Position numbers and translations under genes: made by a program
The notes under the pieces: generated by a model
Seen by the model: only the letters and a program-made list of their open reading frames with translations
What the model was told of the DNA's origin: nothing
Databases searched by the model: none
From: Candidatus Omnitrophota bacterium
GTDB lineage: Bacteria > Omnitrophota > Gorgyraeia > Aquiviventales > Aquiviventaceae
Assembly (NCBI GenBank): GCA_023247235.1
Contig: JAHFGW010000002.1
Location: 8,722-48,245, forward strand
Direction of reading: 5' to 3'
DNA: 39,524 nt
Shown here: in pieces, positions 10,122-28,348 of the stretch
Layout: each line of letters starts with the position of its first letter
How positions within the stretch are numbered: the stretch's first letter is position 1

Positions 10122-10982
10122 ATGGCAGAAGTGAAAGAGTTTGCCGGGAAGATCAAGCCGGACTGGTGTCCGGGCTGCGGGGACTACGGGGTGCTCAACG
10201 CCCTCCAGCGGGCGCTGGCCGATCTGGACATCGCGCCCCATAACGTGCTGGTGGTGTCGGGCATCGGGTGTTCCTCGAACCTGCCCGGCTTCATCAATGC
10301 CTACGGGTTCCACGGGCTGCACGGGCGGTCGCTGCCGGTCGCAGCCGGCGCGCGGCTGGCCAACCACGGGCTCACGGTGCTGGTCACCGGCGGCGACGGG
10401 GACGGCTACGGGATCGGAGTGGGCCACTTCGTCCATACCTGCCGGCGCAACATCAACATGACATACATCGTCATGGACAACCAGATCTACGGCCTGACGA
10501 CCGGGCAGGCCTCGCCGACGACGGAAAAAGACATCCGGACCAAGTCCACGCCGGAGGGCACGATCGAGATCCCGCTCAACCCGATCGCGCTGGCGCTCAC
10601 CTGCGGCGCGACGTATGTGGCCCGCGGGTTCTCGGGGGAAAACCTGCAGCTGGCCAATCTCCTCAAGGGGGCGATTGAGCACAAGGGCTTCTCGCTGGTT
10701 GATGTGTTCTCGCCGTGCGTGACCTACAACAAGCACAACACCTATCCGTGGTTCCGCGAGCGGGTCTACAAGCTGGAAGACGAGCGGCACGACCCCTCGG
10801 ATTTCCGCCTGGCGATGGAGAAGGCGTTCGAGTGGGGCGCGCGCATCCCGATCGGCCTGTTCTACAAGGTGGAGCGGCCGACCTACGAGGATGAAGATCC
10901 CACGCTGCGCAGCGGCATCCCGCTGGTCAAGCAGCCGGCGGGGCGCGCGAACCTCGCGGAGATTATGCAGGATTTCATGTGA
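10122..10982 (+). CDS. korB: 2-oxoacid:ferredoxin oxidoreductase, beta subunit (copy 1)
   Basis: DWCPGCGDYGVLNAL, GIGCSSNLPGF, TGGDGDGYGIG, SPCVTYNKHNTYPW. Confidence 0.92.
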   Translation: MAEVKEFAGKIKPDWCPGCGDYGVLNALQRALADLDIAPHNVLVVSGIGCSSNLPGFINAYGFHGLHGRSLPVAAGARLANHGLTVLVTGGDGDGYGIGVGHFVHTCRRNINMTYIVMDNQIYGLTTGQASPTTEKDIRTKSTPEGTIEIPLNPIALALTCGATYVARGFSGENLQLANLLKGAIEHKGFSLVDVFSPCVTYNKHNTYPWFRERVYKLEDERHDPSDFRLAMEKAFEWGARIPIGLFYKVERPTYEDEDPTLRSGIPLVKQPAGRANLAEIMQDFM

Positions 10983-11290
10983 TGCCGACGCTGACCAAAG
11001 TGGCGACCCGTTCGGAACTTCCCTCAGGCAAGGGCAAGGTCGTTGAGGCCGGCGGCCGCACACTCGCGGTGTTTAATTGCGGCGGAACCTTTTACGCGAC
11101 GGACAACACCTGTGTGCATCGCGGCGGACCGCTGGGCGAGGGCAGCCTGACCGGCACGGTCGTGACGTGCCCATGGCATGGCTGGGAGTACGATGTGGCC
11201 AGCGGCGCTTGCAAGACCAACCCGGCGGCCACCATTCAGCGCTTTGACGTGAAGGTCGAAGGGGACGCGATCCTCGTCTCCGTGCCGTAG
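10982..11290 (+). CDS. Rieske [2Fe-2S] ferredoxin-like protein
   Basis: CVHRGGPLGEG...CPWHGWEYDVASGAC (CxH/CxxH Rieske ligands). Confidence 0.92.
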   Translation: MPTLTKVATRSELPSGKGKVVEAGGRTLAVFNCGGTFYATDNTCVHRGGPLGEGSLTGTVVTCPWHGWEYDVASGACKTNPAATIQRFDVKVEGDAILVSVP

Positions 11291-11422
11291 TTCATTGTTG
11301 ATTGTTCATTGTTCATAGTAAGAGCTGGAGGTCAGAGGAGTTCGTTGATGGATGCCGTCGGCGCAGGCCGGCGATTTCATAGACGGCTCTTACTACGAAC
11401 TATGAACAACGAACAATGAACA
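11288..11422. repeat. Heptad inverted-repeat element 1 (TTCATTG-type heptads)
   Basis: Left arm g-ttcattg-ttgattg-ttcattg-ttcatag-taagagc; reverse complement of right arm g-ttcattg-ttcgttg-ttcatag-ttcgtag-taagagc; 32/36 identical; 60-nt spacer. Confidence 0.85.
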
Positions 11423-11439
11423 AGACCGCTAGTGTTTGC

Positions 11440-12417
11440 ATGGAAAAAAAGTGTGTGGCAATGCTCTCCGGCGGCCTGGACAGCTCCCTGGCCGCGCGCT
11501 TGATGCTCAAGCAGGGCATCGAGGTGCACGGCCTCTACCTCTCCCTGAGCTGGGGCTGCTGCGACAAGGACAAAGCCGCCTCGGCGGCCCGCCAGCTCGG
11601 CATTCCCCTCATGGTACTGGGCGTCGGGGACGCCTACCTCGACGTCATCCGCACCCCCAAGTACGGCTACGGGACCGGCATGAACCCATGCGTGGACTGC
11701 CGCATCTACATGTTCCGCATTGCTCGCCGCTACATGGAAGAGCTCGGCGCCGGGTTCGTGGTGACCGGCGAAGTCGTGGGCCAGCGGCCCATGTCGCAGA
11801 TGCGCAGGCCCTTAGAGCTGATCGAAGCGGAAAGCGGGCTCGAGGGATTACTGGTCCGCCCGCTGTCGGCGCAACTGCTGGACCCGACGCTGCCGGAACT
11901 GCTGGGCGTCGTCGACCGGCAGCAGCTGCTGCGTGTCGCCGGCCGCTCGCGCCAGGAGCAGCTGGCGCTCGCACGGGCCGAAGCGCTCACCGAATATTCC
12001 ACCCCCGCGGGCGGCTGTTTGCTGACGGACCCCCACTTTGCGAAGAAAACGCGCGATCTATTCGAGCACGAGGAGCGGCCCACCACGAAGGATATGGAGC
12101 TCCTCACCCTGGGACGGCACTATCGCTTGGGACCACGCGCCAAGCTGATCCTCGGCCGCAATGAGCTGGAAAACCTGATGCTGGAAGGCCATGCGGAGCC
12201 GGGGTACCGGTGCCTGCGGCCGACATTTCCAGGACCGACCGCACTCCTGGTCGGGCCTTGCCCCGAGGAGCTTGAGCCGGTGGCGGTCCGCTTAATCGTG
12301 CAGCACACCAAGCCGGAGAAGCTTCCGCCAGAGGGGTCGTTGGAATTCTGGCGCGACGGACAGCCCTGGAGCGCGACACGGCCTCCCGTGGCGGAGGCGG
12401 CGGTCGCGGCACTCTGA
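11440..12417 (+). CDS. PP-loop ATPase (ThiI/MnmA-like thiouridylase-type) with probable C-terminal NFACT-R-like domain
   Basis: AMLSGGLDSSLAARLML; NPCVDCRIYMFRIARRYMEELGAGFVVTGEVVGQRPMSQ; C-terminal LGRHYRLGPRAKLILGRNELENLML. ORF-track ATG at 11416 lies in the repeat arm; ATG 11440 is more likely. Confidence 0.8.
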   Translation: MEKKCVAMLSGGLDSSLAARLMLKQGIEVHGLYLSLSWGCCDKDKAASAARQLGIPLMVLGVGDAYLDVIRTPKYGYGTGMNPCVDCRIYMFRIARRYMEELGAGFVVTGEVVGQRPMSQMRRPLELIEAESGLEGLLVRPLSAQLLDPTLPELLGVVDRQQLLRVAGRSRQEQLALARAEALTEYSTPAGGCLLTDPHFAKKTRDLFEHEERPTTKDMELLTLGRHYRLGPRAKLILGRNELENLMLEGHAEPGYRCLRPTFPGPTALLVGPCPEELEPVAVRLIVQHTKPEKLPPEGSLEFWRDGQPWSATRPPVAEAAVAAL

Positions 12418-15037: not shown

Positions 15038-16414
15038 ATGAGATCCCGCCTCGAGCGCGATTCGCTCGGGACCAAGCGCGTCCCCGCGTCCGCCTATTAC
15101 GGCATCCAGACCCTCCGGGCCATCGAGAATTTCCCCATCAGCGGGCTGCACCTGCCGACGGACATGATCCGCGCCTATGCCGCGATCAAGGACGCGGCGG
15201 CCTCTGCCAACGCGGCAATCGGCTGGCTGCCGCGACGGATGAGCGCGGCGATCCGGCGCGCCGCGGACGAAGTGCTGCGCGGGCGCTTCGACGACCAGTT
15301 TGTGCTCGACGTCTACCAGGCCGGCGCCGGCACCTCGTTCAACATGAACATGAACGAAGTGCTCGCCAACCGGGCGAACGAGTTCTTGCGCGGCCGCCGG
15401 GGCACCTACCGGCCCATCCATCCGAATGACCACGTGAACATGGCCCAGTCGACGAATGACACATTTCCGACGGCTATTCAGCTCGCCACGCTGATGACCG
15501 TCCCGCAGTTACTGGAGGCCGGCAAGGAGCTGGAGCAGGCGCTGGCGCGCAAGGCCCGCCAGTTCGCCGGCATCGTCAAGGCGGGGCGGACGCACCTGCA
15601 GGACGCCGTGCCGGTGCGGCTGGGTGGTGAGTTCGGCGCCTACGCGATGGCGATCCGCAAGGCGCTGCGGTACATCGAGGAGCAGGCTCGCCCGATGCGC
15701 GAGCTCACGCTGGGGGGCACGGCCGTGGGGACCGGCATGAATGCGCATCCTCGCTACCGGAGCTTGGCGATCCGGCGGCTGCGGCAGCGGCTGAAGCTGC
15801 CACTGCGTCCTGCCGCGCATCCCCAGGAGCGGATGCAGAGCATGGCCGATGCCGCGCGGGTGTCGGGGAGCCTTCGCGTCTATGCCATCGAGCTGATCCG
15901 CATCGCGAACGATCTGCGGCTCATGAGTTCCGGACCCAACACCGGGCTGGCGGAGCTGACGCTGCCAGCGGTGCAACCCGGCTCGTCGATCATGCCCGGG
16001 AAGGTGAATCCTTCGATGGCCGAAATGGTCGACATGGTCAGCTTTCAAGTCTTCGGGCATGATCAGACGGTGGCCCTGGCGGCGCAGGCGGGTCAACTGG
16101 AACTCAACGTCATGATGCCCGTCATCGCCTACAACCTCTTGCAAGCCATCCACATCTTGACGGCGGCCAGCCGTGTCTTCGCCAGGCGCTGCGTGAACGG
16201 GATCGAAGCCAACCGGCCACGCTGCGAGGCCTTCGCGCGGCGCAGTCTGGCCTTGGTGACCGCGCTGGCGCCGAAGCTCGGCTATCTCGAGGCGGCCAGG
16301 ATCGCGAAGGAGTCCTTGGACACCCATCACTCGCTTGAGGATTTAGTTGTGGCGCGTGGCCTCCTGGGCAGGGCGGAGGCTCGGCGTCTGCTGGACCCCC
16401 GCCGCCTTTGCTGA
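15038..16414 (+). CDS. aspA: Aspartate ammonia-lyase / class II fumarase family
   Basis: YYGIQTLRAIENFPISG, NMAQSTNDTFPTA, signature GSSIMPGKVNP. Confidence 0.85.
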   Translation: MRSRLERDSLGTKRVPASAYYGIQTLRAIENFPISGLHLPTDMIRAYAAIKDAAASANAAIGWLPRRMSAAIRRAADEVLRGRFDDQFVLDVYQAGAGTSFNMNMNEVLANRANEFLRGRRGTYRPIHPNDHVNMAQSTNDTFPTAIQLATLMTVPQLLEAGKELEQALARKARQFAGIVKAGRTHLQDAVPVRLGGEFGAYAMAIRKALRYIEEQARPMRELTLGGTAVGTGMNAHPRYRSLAIRRLRQRLKLPLRPAAHPQERMQSMADAARVSGSLRVYAIELIRIANDLRLMSSGPNTGLAELTLPAVQPGSSIMPGKVNPSMAEMVDMVSFQVFGHDQTVALAAQAGQLELNVMMPVIAYNLLQAIHILTAASRVFARRCVNGIEANRPRCEAFARRSLALVTALAPKLGYLEAARIAKESLDTHHSLEDLVVARGLLGRAEARRLLDPRRLC

Positions 16415-16461
16415 CGGCTTCCGTCTTGCCGTGGCTGTGCGGCCCATGCTAACATCGTATC

Positions 16462-16524
16462 TCCCTTCCTTTCAGGAAAGGGATGGTCGTGCAGGAAGGG
16501 AAAACCTCGTGTTCCCTTCCTGCA
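16462..16524. repeat. tRNA-cluster hairpin repeat, copy 1
   Basis: CCTTTCAGGAAAGG palindrome then perfect hairpin tgcaggaagggaa-aacctcgtg-ttcccttcctgca (16490-16524). Confidence 0.8.
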
Positions 16525-16560
16525 TCAACGAAACGCCCCTAGCCACAACTGAAGGCGCTT

Positions 16561-16634
16561 GCGCCCGTAGCTCACTTGGATAGAGCGCCTGGCTTCGAAC
16601 CAGGAGGCAGCAGGTTCGATTCCTGCCGGGCGCG
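16561..16634 (+). tRNA. tRNA-Arg (anticodon TCG)
   Basis: Acceptor gcgcccg/cgggcgc, anticodon arm cctgg-cttcgaa-ccagg, T-arm gcagg-ttcgatt-cctgc. Confidence 0.95.
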
Positions 16635-26312: not shown

Positions 26313-26408
26313 TGTGTAATGTTTATTGTGTAATGTGTAATGGAAATGCGGGAGCGAAAGAGAGTGGTTTTGCTCTTACATTACACGTTACACATTGCAC
26401 ATTACACA
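26313..26408. repeat. Heptad inverted-repeat element 2 (TGTGTAA-type heptads)
   Basis: Left tgtgtaa-tgtttat-tgtgtaa-tgtgtaa-tggaaat-gcgggagc; right gctctta-cattaca-cgttaca-cattgca-cattaca-ca; 16-nt spacer. Confidence 0.8.
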
Positions 26409-26427: not shown

Positions 26428-27519
26428 TTAGTGGCGGATGGCCCTGGCGACGAGGAGCACGCCCAGGCCCAGCCCGGTGACATTGGGCAGCCACATGGCC
26501 ACCCAGGCCGGCAGCCAGCCTTTGATGCCGACCGCGCTCAGCCCGATTGAAGCCAGGTAGTAGGCGAGGAAGATGATGAACACCCACACGAAGCTGACCA
26601 ACCGTTCATGGTGGCGCAACTGCAGCCCCAGGGCCAGGCCGAAGACGACAAAGACCAGCGCGGCGAACGAGGAGGCGATTCTGCGGTGGAATTCCAAGGA
26701 TACCGGCCGCGTGTCGATGCCCTCGCTGGCGACGCGCTGGCGCTCCTGGAGTAACTGATGAAAGCTCATCTCCTTGAGCTTGCGACTCATCTTGCTGGTT
26801 TCGTTCCGATCCGACCGCAGGTCCATCGCGTAGCTGCCGAAGGTAATCTTGTAGAACAGGCCAGGCAGCGAGGGATCCCATTGGTCCGCAGTGCCGTCGT
26901 ATAGGAGCAGCCGCACGCCTTTGCGATCCGGCGTGGACTCGAACTCCCCCCGCGAGGCGATGATCGCGCGGGTCGGGCCGTTGGCCTGCGGCTCGTAAAT
27001 GCGCACATCGAGGAGTTTCTGCCCCTCGAGTTGATAGACGAAGATCGTATAGGGCGAGAACTCCCGGATGAAGGTCCCGGCTTCAATGTAGGCGGCGGGC
27101 CGCTGCTGGCCGATCGTGCGCAGCTGCTTGCGAAATGCCAAGTGCGATTCGGGAATCAGCCGGTCGTTGATGACCAACAGCAGCAGGCTCAGGACGGCGC
27201 CGGTCATCACGATGGGAACGACCAGGCGCAGGGGCGCGATCCCCGAGGCGCGCATGGCGATCAGCTCGTAATCCGTGCTGAGCCGGCCAAACGCGAGAAT
27301 CATCGCCACCAAACAGGCCATCGGGATGGTAAAGCTCGACATGTAGGGAACCAAGTAGAGCAAGAGGCGCAGGATATCGAAGACATTGACCCCTTTGGCG
27401 ATCACCAGCTCGGCGAACTTGATGATGTGGCCGACCAAGAGGGCGGCCGTGAGCGCGCCGATCGTGGCAAGGAAGGGCGCCAGGTGTTCCCGAAGCACGT
27501 AGGTCCGCAAAATTCTCAT
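26428..27519 (-). CDS. lptF: LptF-like LPS export permease (YjgP/YjgQ family)
   Basis: MRILRTYVLREHLAPFLATIGALTAALLVGHIIK... ; ORF-track extension to 27588 translates the adjacent heptad repeat. Confidence 0.85.
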   Translation of the reverse strand: MRILRTYVLREHLAPFLATIGALTAALLVGHIIKFAELVIAKGVNVFDILRLLLYLVPYMSSFTIPMACLVAMILAFGRLSTDYELIAMRASGIAPLRLVVPIVMTGAVLSLLLLVINDRLIPESHLAFRKQLRTIGQQRPAAYIEAGTFIREFSPYTIFVYQLEGQKLLDVRIYEPQANGPTRAIIASRGEFESTPDRKGVRLLLYDGTADQWDPSLPGLFYKITFGSYAMDLRSDRNETSKMSRKLKEMSFHQLLQERQRVASEGIDTRPVSLEFHRRIASSFAALVFVVFGLALGLQLRHHERLVSFVWVFIIFLAYYLASIGLSAVGIKGWLPAWVAMWLPNVTGLGLGVLLVARAIRH

Positions 27520-27521
27520 CT

Positions 27522-27612
27522 GAGTGCGGAATGCGGAGTGCGGAATGCGGAGTGAGAACCAAGGCATCGCGAGGTTCCCATTCCGCATTCCGAATTCCGA
27601 ACTCCGAATTGA
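27522..27612. repeat. Heptad inverted-repeat element 3 (GAGTGCG/GAATGCG-type heptads)
   Basis: Left gagtgcg-gaatgcg-gagtgcg-gaatgcg-gagtgag-aacc; right ggttcccattccgcattccgaattccgaactccgaattga; 12-nt spacer. Confidence 0.85.
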
Positions 27613-27613
27613 C

Positions 27614-28348
27614 CTAGCGTGTTCGCCATTGGAGGGGAGTGCGGGCGGCAGTCAGGACAAAGACCTCGCGCGAACCGGCTGCCCGCAGCGCCTGCGCGCA
27701 CGCCTGAGCCGTGGCGCCGGTCGTGAGCACGTCATCGACCAGCAGGATGCCCTGTCCTTGAACGCGCCTGGGATCAGCCTGGAAGCTTTCGCGGACGTTT
27801 CGCCAGCGTTCCTGCCAGGTCCGCTGGCGCGTTTGGCTTGGCGTCCAGCGCCTGCGGCGCAGGGCCAGGGCATCGTGGGGTTTGTGCAGGGCGCTGGCCA
27901 CGCGTGCGGACAGTTCCGCGGCGTGGTTGGCTCCTCGCAGGCGCCGCGTGAGCCAGTGAAGCGGCACCGGCACGACGAGGTCAATTTGCGCCACCGGCAG
28001 GTCTTCACCCGCCCGATGCGCCATGGTCTCGGCCAGCCAGCGCCCCAGACGCCGGCGGTGACGGTACTTCAACAGCCGGATCGCCTGGCGCCCGGCCCCG
28101 AGATACAGCCAGGGCGCGCGCGCGCCGGCGAACGCGGGCGGCCGCGCGCGGCAGCGGGCGCAGACCAGCCGCGCATCGAAGGCTCCCGACAGCCCGATCC
28201 CGCAGGACAGACAGAGCGGGCGGCCTGGGCGCGGCATCGCGGCCTCGCACGAGCGGCAGAGCGCGGCGTCGGCACGAGGGAGGGAGCGGTCACAGCGCGG
28301 GCAGGCTGGCGGATAGAGCACATTGGCCAACCGATGCAGCGTCAGCAT
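27614..28348 (-). CDS. comF: ComF-family phosphoribosyltransferase-like protein
   Basis: [20 protein letters not shown] zinc motif; [27 protein letters not shown] motif. Confidence 0.9.

Follow-up and report, generated by a model that had tools for sequence, protein, structure and literature searches.

The window analysed here, a 39,524-nucleotide (nt) stretch of an Omnitrophota genome (G000), carries an inverted repeat of heptanucleotides between two plus-strand genes. Upstream is a gene for a Rieske [2Fe-2S] protein (10982–11290; PF00355, E = 7e-22), and downstream a gene for a PP-loop (ThiI/MnmA-like) protein, probably spanning 11440–12417. A preliminary description had proposed 36-nt arms around a 60-nt spacer, the left arm beginning within the Rieske stop codon. 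Both points are confirmed: the arms occupy 11290–11325 and 11386–11421 with 32 of 36 positions paired (89%), and the first base of the left arm is the G of the TAG (11288–11290), which gene and element share. The left array, GTTCATT GTTGATT GTTCATT GTTCATA G (11290–11318, plus strand), is followed by TAAGAGC (11319–11325, plus strand). The right array, ACTACGAACTATGAACAACGAACAATGAACA (11393–11423, minus strand), is its inverse, with pairing stopping at 11421, and is preceded by GCTCTTA (11386–11392, minus strand), the reverse complement of TAAGAGC. The spacer between them (11326–11385, unstranded) holds a small inner hairpin (GCCGTCGGCGCAGGCCGGCGA). TAAGAGC is thus present at both inner ends as described, but does not continue the array as another heptad; each arm consists of about four heptads plus this inner core. 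The ATG at 11416 offered by the open reading frame track does lie inside the right arm. The PP-loop protein more likely starts at ATG 11440, because alignments with its homologues begin at the first residue encoded from there. Annotators should be aware that starts and gene ends next to heptad elements can be miscalled, as with ATG 11416.

The element is predicted to fold far more stably than shuffled sequence, both as DNA (z = −8.5) and as RNA (z = −9.9), and none of the shuffles reached its stability in either case. Together with the genome-wide excess of arrays at lag 7 described below, this indicates that the element is not a product of chance. An Rfam scan of the window matched tRNAs only and gave nothing at the element. 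The Rieske/PP-loop junction is occupied differently elsewhere: in other genera the gap is a few to about 25 nt (loci L182, L187, L189 and L194), unrelated inverted repeats are found instead in loci L185 and L190, and the relative G002 has an unrelated hairpin.

Two further heptad elements, neither assigned a strand, lie in the window. One, of family TGTGTAA (26313–26408), lies 19 nt past the stop of a minus-strand gene (26428–27510) and has TAAGAGC at its right inner end; the other, of family TGCGGAA/ATTCCGA (27519–27607), lies a few nt past the stop of the minus-strand gene at 27614–28348. The earlier proposal that the element near 27.5 kb has the same architecture with unrelated heptads is borne out, and it holds genome-wide and across genera. 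Separately, an imperfect inverted repeat at 16342–16553 (TTTAGTTGTGGCGCGTGGC / GCCCCTAGCCACAACTGAA, 174-nt gap) directly precedes a tRNA at 16561.

Heptad arrays are abundant throughout G000 (1.34 Mb in 46 contigs, 90.7% complete). When self-matches of the contigs were scored at every lag, 73 arrays reached a score of at least 15 at lag 7, against 0–3 at lags 3–6 and 8–12; lags 14 and 21 are harmonics of lag 7. At a score of at least 12 there are 118 arrays in about 82 loci, and these include 57 clear inverted pairs, whose arms measure about 28 nt and whose spacers have a median length of 20 nt. By pair count the families include GGCTCGT/GGCTSGA (31), GTTCATT-like (12), TGTGTAATG-like (7), GCGGAAT (2) and TAGCGT (2).

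G000 also contains other repeats. An unpaired ACCCCGA array follows both copies of tuf (C11:84411–84440 and C11:100089–100118) within an identical stretch of 1,246 nt, which is likely to stem from gene conversion. Another palindromic family of about 114–120 nt (ATGACCCCACCACCTGCTGGG...CCAGCAGGTGGTGGGATGATCC) is also intergenic (C21:13695–13808, C34:1231–1350, C35:44619–44738 and C6:13127–13242), and relatives L195 and L201 have a hairpin resembling it. A further family, about 292 nt long with AGAACCGGCTTCAT...ATGAAACCGGTTCT at its ends and 84–99.7% identical between copies, is mainly intergenic (C4:12355–12655, C11:32327–32620, C22:86331–86631, C17:3450–3743 and C37:67–358).

With genes called by a simple, purpose-written hexamer-based finder, 55 of the heptad loci lie between co-directional genes, the median distance from the upstream stop being 11 nt and that to the next start 19 nt. 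The element fills the gap between such genes. None of 50 divergent junctions carries one, yet measured against the full set of junctions this absence is not significant (p = 0.16). About 16 loci lie inside genes with the frame kept open; among the weakest, a few may be chance arrays. Family models name the carriers as ValS (three inserts), KdsB, an RluA-family pseudouridine synthase, CarA, CarB, Dxs, NadC, a radical SAM/GNAT protein and a MiaB-like protein. Well-placed in-gene inserts of the GGCTSGA family are predicted to encode SRLEARG...RATSHEPRA. An apparent KdsB–CTP synthase fusion was discarded as an assembly artefact since it spans a run of N, and two candidate genes split by an element were set aside, both resembling paralogous neighbours.

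A simple property of the repeat bears on this placement. Because 7 is not a multiple of 3, an array of at least three heptads yields one and the same cyclic peptide whichever frame is read, and hence a stop-free heptad can read through any frame. Heptads that bear a stop, such as GTTCATT and TGTGTAA, would survive only between genes because every frame is stopped on at least one strand. None of the 19 pairs of these two families is in a gene, compared with 8 of the 31 GGCTSGA pairs. This is the expectation under purifying selection and no proof of design, and the frame property gives no reason for a period of 7 over 10 or 11. It does offer a simple, testable reason for the survival of inserts in genes. 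The Rieske/PP-loop copy is of the stop-bearing kind and is placed exactly at the Rieske stop, overlapping it; in six GTTCATT-type elements the TAG of the upstream gene overlaps the array. Across uncultivated bacteria, heptad elements would shape operon spacing and add peptides to essential enzymes.

Comparison with G002, a member of the same family, reveals gain and loss at these positions. The comparison covered 935 kb, about 70% of G002, and yielded 652 reciprocal best hits with a median protein identity of 67%. Orthologous junctions with an element in G000 only number 27, with a median gap of 124 nt against 21 nt in G002, and the 18 with an element in G002 only have median gaps of 102.5 nt against 9 nt in G000. 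Four junctions carry one in both genomes. Several of the empty junctions are overlapping ATGA stop-starts. Since orthologous junctions are often without the element, an insertion element is favoured over a conserved RNA device. Within genes, KdsB, NadC and the RluA-family gene have arrays in both genomes. In G002 the frame of the RluA-family gene (C24:9223–10240, L261) changes across its element of about 47 nt, which is not a multiple of 3; the gene may be frameshifted and decayed, slipping in phase (phase variation) or misassembled. Relatives also contain inverted arrays of period 8 with the same architecture (G002 C17:33956–34050 and C28:51920–52001; L190; L220; for example GTTTGCGC/AACGCGCC).

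The sharpest contrast in repeat words at shared sites comes from two loops of ValS, which hold heptad arrays in nine other genera, with different heptads in each. In one or both loops the words are GGCTCGA (G000), GGGACAG (G002), GGGGCTC (G008), GGGGCGT-like (G011), GGCTCAA (G013), GGGGCGG (G014), GGTCAGT (G016, site 1), GGGGCAC (G007) and, at class level, AAGGACG (G034); G029, also related at class level, has period 7 at site 2 and period 8 at site 1. Most are inverted pairs and some are single arrays. No arrays were found in the ValS loops of G005, G006, G010 and G012. Site 1 measures 93 nt in G000 and G002 compared with 33–39 nt in the shortest empty orthologues. The sharing may reflect repeated insertion into a small number of permissive loops, or early insertions in which one repeat word has since given way to another; the data fit both. 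At site 2 of the class-level relative G028 (L219) there is a different palindrome (CGTCATTGCGAGGAGCGAGC...), so this loop accepts several kinds of palindromic insert. Beyond ValS, among loci fetched with the PP-loop gene, arrays of period 7 compare with those of other periods from 4 to 12 as 7 to 0–1 in Deltaproteobacteria/Desulfobacterota and 3 to 0 in Nitrospirota; Geomonas oryzae is among the loci with period-7 arrays.

Relationships between copies bear on how the elements arise. Contig C14 of G000 carries an element of about 80 nt twice in identical form, the copies lying 256 bp apart in different flanks, and in G011 one element occupies both ValS sites with a single mismatch between copies. 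These pairs show copying of whole elements and place their borders close to the outermost heptads. Most copies have spacers unrelated to one another, a finding that simple transposition leaves unexplained; similar ones lie nearly all within about 4 kb of each other, with one moderately similar pair on different contigs as the exception. Target-site duplication is not consistent, direct repeats in the flanks being no longer than with shuffled flanks.

This pattern gives some room to an origin without transposition, in which local replication slippage and template switching at the fork produce the inverted copies and recombination or gene conversion between arrays spreads the families. Arms shared in the face of unrelated spacers, the missing target duplications, the nearness of copies with similar spacers and the genus-specific sequences at the same ValS sites would all follow. 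Such an origin is nonetheless unlikely: compact empty sites, with gaps of 1–21 nt in the relative, offer little to slip on, the heptads are common to dozens of dispersed loci and the AAGAGC core to many, and whole elements recur in different flanks.

That core is the general form of a feature noted at the inner boundaries. Enrichment of TAAGAGC there had been proposed as a test; exact TAAGAGC is found in only 2 of the 57 spacers of paired elements and was rejected as a general mark, but AAGAGC occurs in 10 of 57 against 1.4 expected and is their most enriched 6-mer. The degenerate form AAG[AG][AGC]C lies within 16 nt of an arm in 20 of 57, against 2.1 expected, and 200 shuffles peak at 7. TAAGAGC is the local form of this enriched inner core.

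The inner ends of the spacers are also mutually complementary beyond shuffles in G000 (z = 3.4). Together with the strong RNA fold, and with the interpretation placed on paired inverted tandem heptanucleotides in an earlier paper (PMC2700814), this is what would be expected of host regulatory sites, either paired tandem repeats to which a global regulator or nucleoid protein (IHF/HU) binds or RNA hairpins tuning expression between cistrons. We consider this improbable, since the element is usually missing from orthologous junctions, copies sit within essential coding sequences, the heptads vary by genus and the excess of complementarity is absent in G002.

Another candidate is an element of the REP/REPIN type mobilised by a RAYT (Y1) transposase. 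The inverted pair of short repeats and the extragenic preference are of that type, and Y1_Tnp genes occur in 20 of the 27 genomes examined. However, Y1_Tnp (RAYT, PF01797) has no match in G000, which is 90.7% complete, no heptad arrays adjoin the RAYT genes at the five loci of relatives inspected, and the arms are tandem arrays rather than a single palindrome with a tag; mobilisation by RAYT is therefore improbable. RVT_1 (reverse transcriptase) has no match in G000 either. The RAYT gene of G002 is adjoined by a different hairpin (AAGTACCGGGTACTT; L261:17472–17554, AAAAAGTACCGGGTACTT...AAGTACCCGGTACTTTT), likely to be a REP of that genome. A search within 4 kb of 29 unpaired arrays in this fragmented genome gave no autonomous long version with heptad ends around a gene. 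An intrinsic terminator of the Rieske gene, for which a strong hairpin directly after the stop codon would speak, is very improbable given the lack of a T tract, a negative terminator scan at the element, the same-strand gene that comes next and the copies within genes.

We conclude, with a probability of roughly three in four, that the Rieske/PP-loop element is a member of a dispersed family of short palindromic insertion elements, non-autonomous and with heptad arms. The family is dispersed in the genome, is gained and lost at compact junctions, has whole elements copied to new flanks and is found in frame in variable-length stretches of essential proteins. A typical element would be about 60–140 nt, with two inverted arms of about four tandem heptads around a short spacer and, in many copies, an AAGAGC-like core at an inner end. 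New copies may come from transposition in trans or from copying primed by a hairpin, with selection expected to remove those that break genes. In the message, the Rieske/PP-loop copy is predicted to form a strong hairpin between the two cistrons, and any putative effect on expression would be a by-product or a function acquired later. Mobility as such has good support, but the process behind it does not. More tentatively, and at well below even odds, the elements may form a class of mobile palindromes whose defining features are architecture and a 7-nt period, not the sequence itself: between genera the word at a shared site would be exchanged as a whole, with period and inversion kept. For this, some enzyme or copying process would have to recognise hairpins containing a 7-nt repeat, and the repeat period would have to give the same reading in all three frames. 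Mobility without a recognisable transposase, combined with turnover of the repeat word, would be a novel means of persistence for short selfish DNA.

Among known systems, REPINs resemble the elements in being non-autonomous, dispersed, extragenic inverted pairs of short repeats, but here the arms are tandem heptads, no conserved tag was found and the genome is without RAYT; assignment to REPIN/RAYT fails on the enzyme. MITEs are likewise short, with terminal inverted repeats as here and no coding capacity of their own. In the present elements there is no consistent target-site duplication, the interior is not conserved and no parent transposon was found within 4 kb of the unpaired arrays, and assignment to MITEs fails on the target duplication. 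The TAACTGA repeats of Beggiatoaceae are intergenic heptamer arrays, many per genome as here, but they are direct rather than inverted (one indirect repeat is reported), use a single heptamer and lie mostly just upstream of start codons (PMC4679880). Nematomorph mitochondria have inverted repeats within protein-coding genes, gained and lost between species; these are mitochondrial, with perfect arms of up to 142 bp, and heptad arrays are not described (PMC6649704). Literature searches returned no description of this element by another name apart from the systems cited here.

The descriptive precedent is found in Geobacter metallireducens, for which Aklujkar (2009) listed tandem 7/8-nt repeats in opposite-strand pairs at variable distance, in classes 1–3 with 16–48 aligned sequences per class, as putative global regulator sites (PMC2700814). 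Tandem 7/8-mers paired on opposite strands are what we find here. In the part of that paper available, the pairs are read as regulator sites, and neither empty orthologous sites nor genus-specific heptads are mentioned; its consensus words MTYCTGA, GTTGCTYN and TCTCCGTS are, by eye, unlike the main families here. By analogy, the element would be of the palindromic insertion kind and behave like the Rickettsia palindromic elements (RPEs), small dispersed palindromes of several families, nearly half of them in frame in unrelated metabolic genes (PMC10969869). By description, both are dispersed palindromic repeats of one genome, with 57 inverted pairs here, and in both, numerous unrelated conserved genes carry in-frame inserts. 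RPEs measure about 150 bp, and tandem heptad arms are not described for them in that paper, whereas here the repeat word differs by genus at the same sites.
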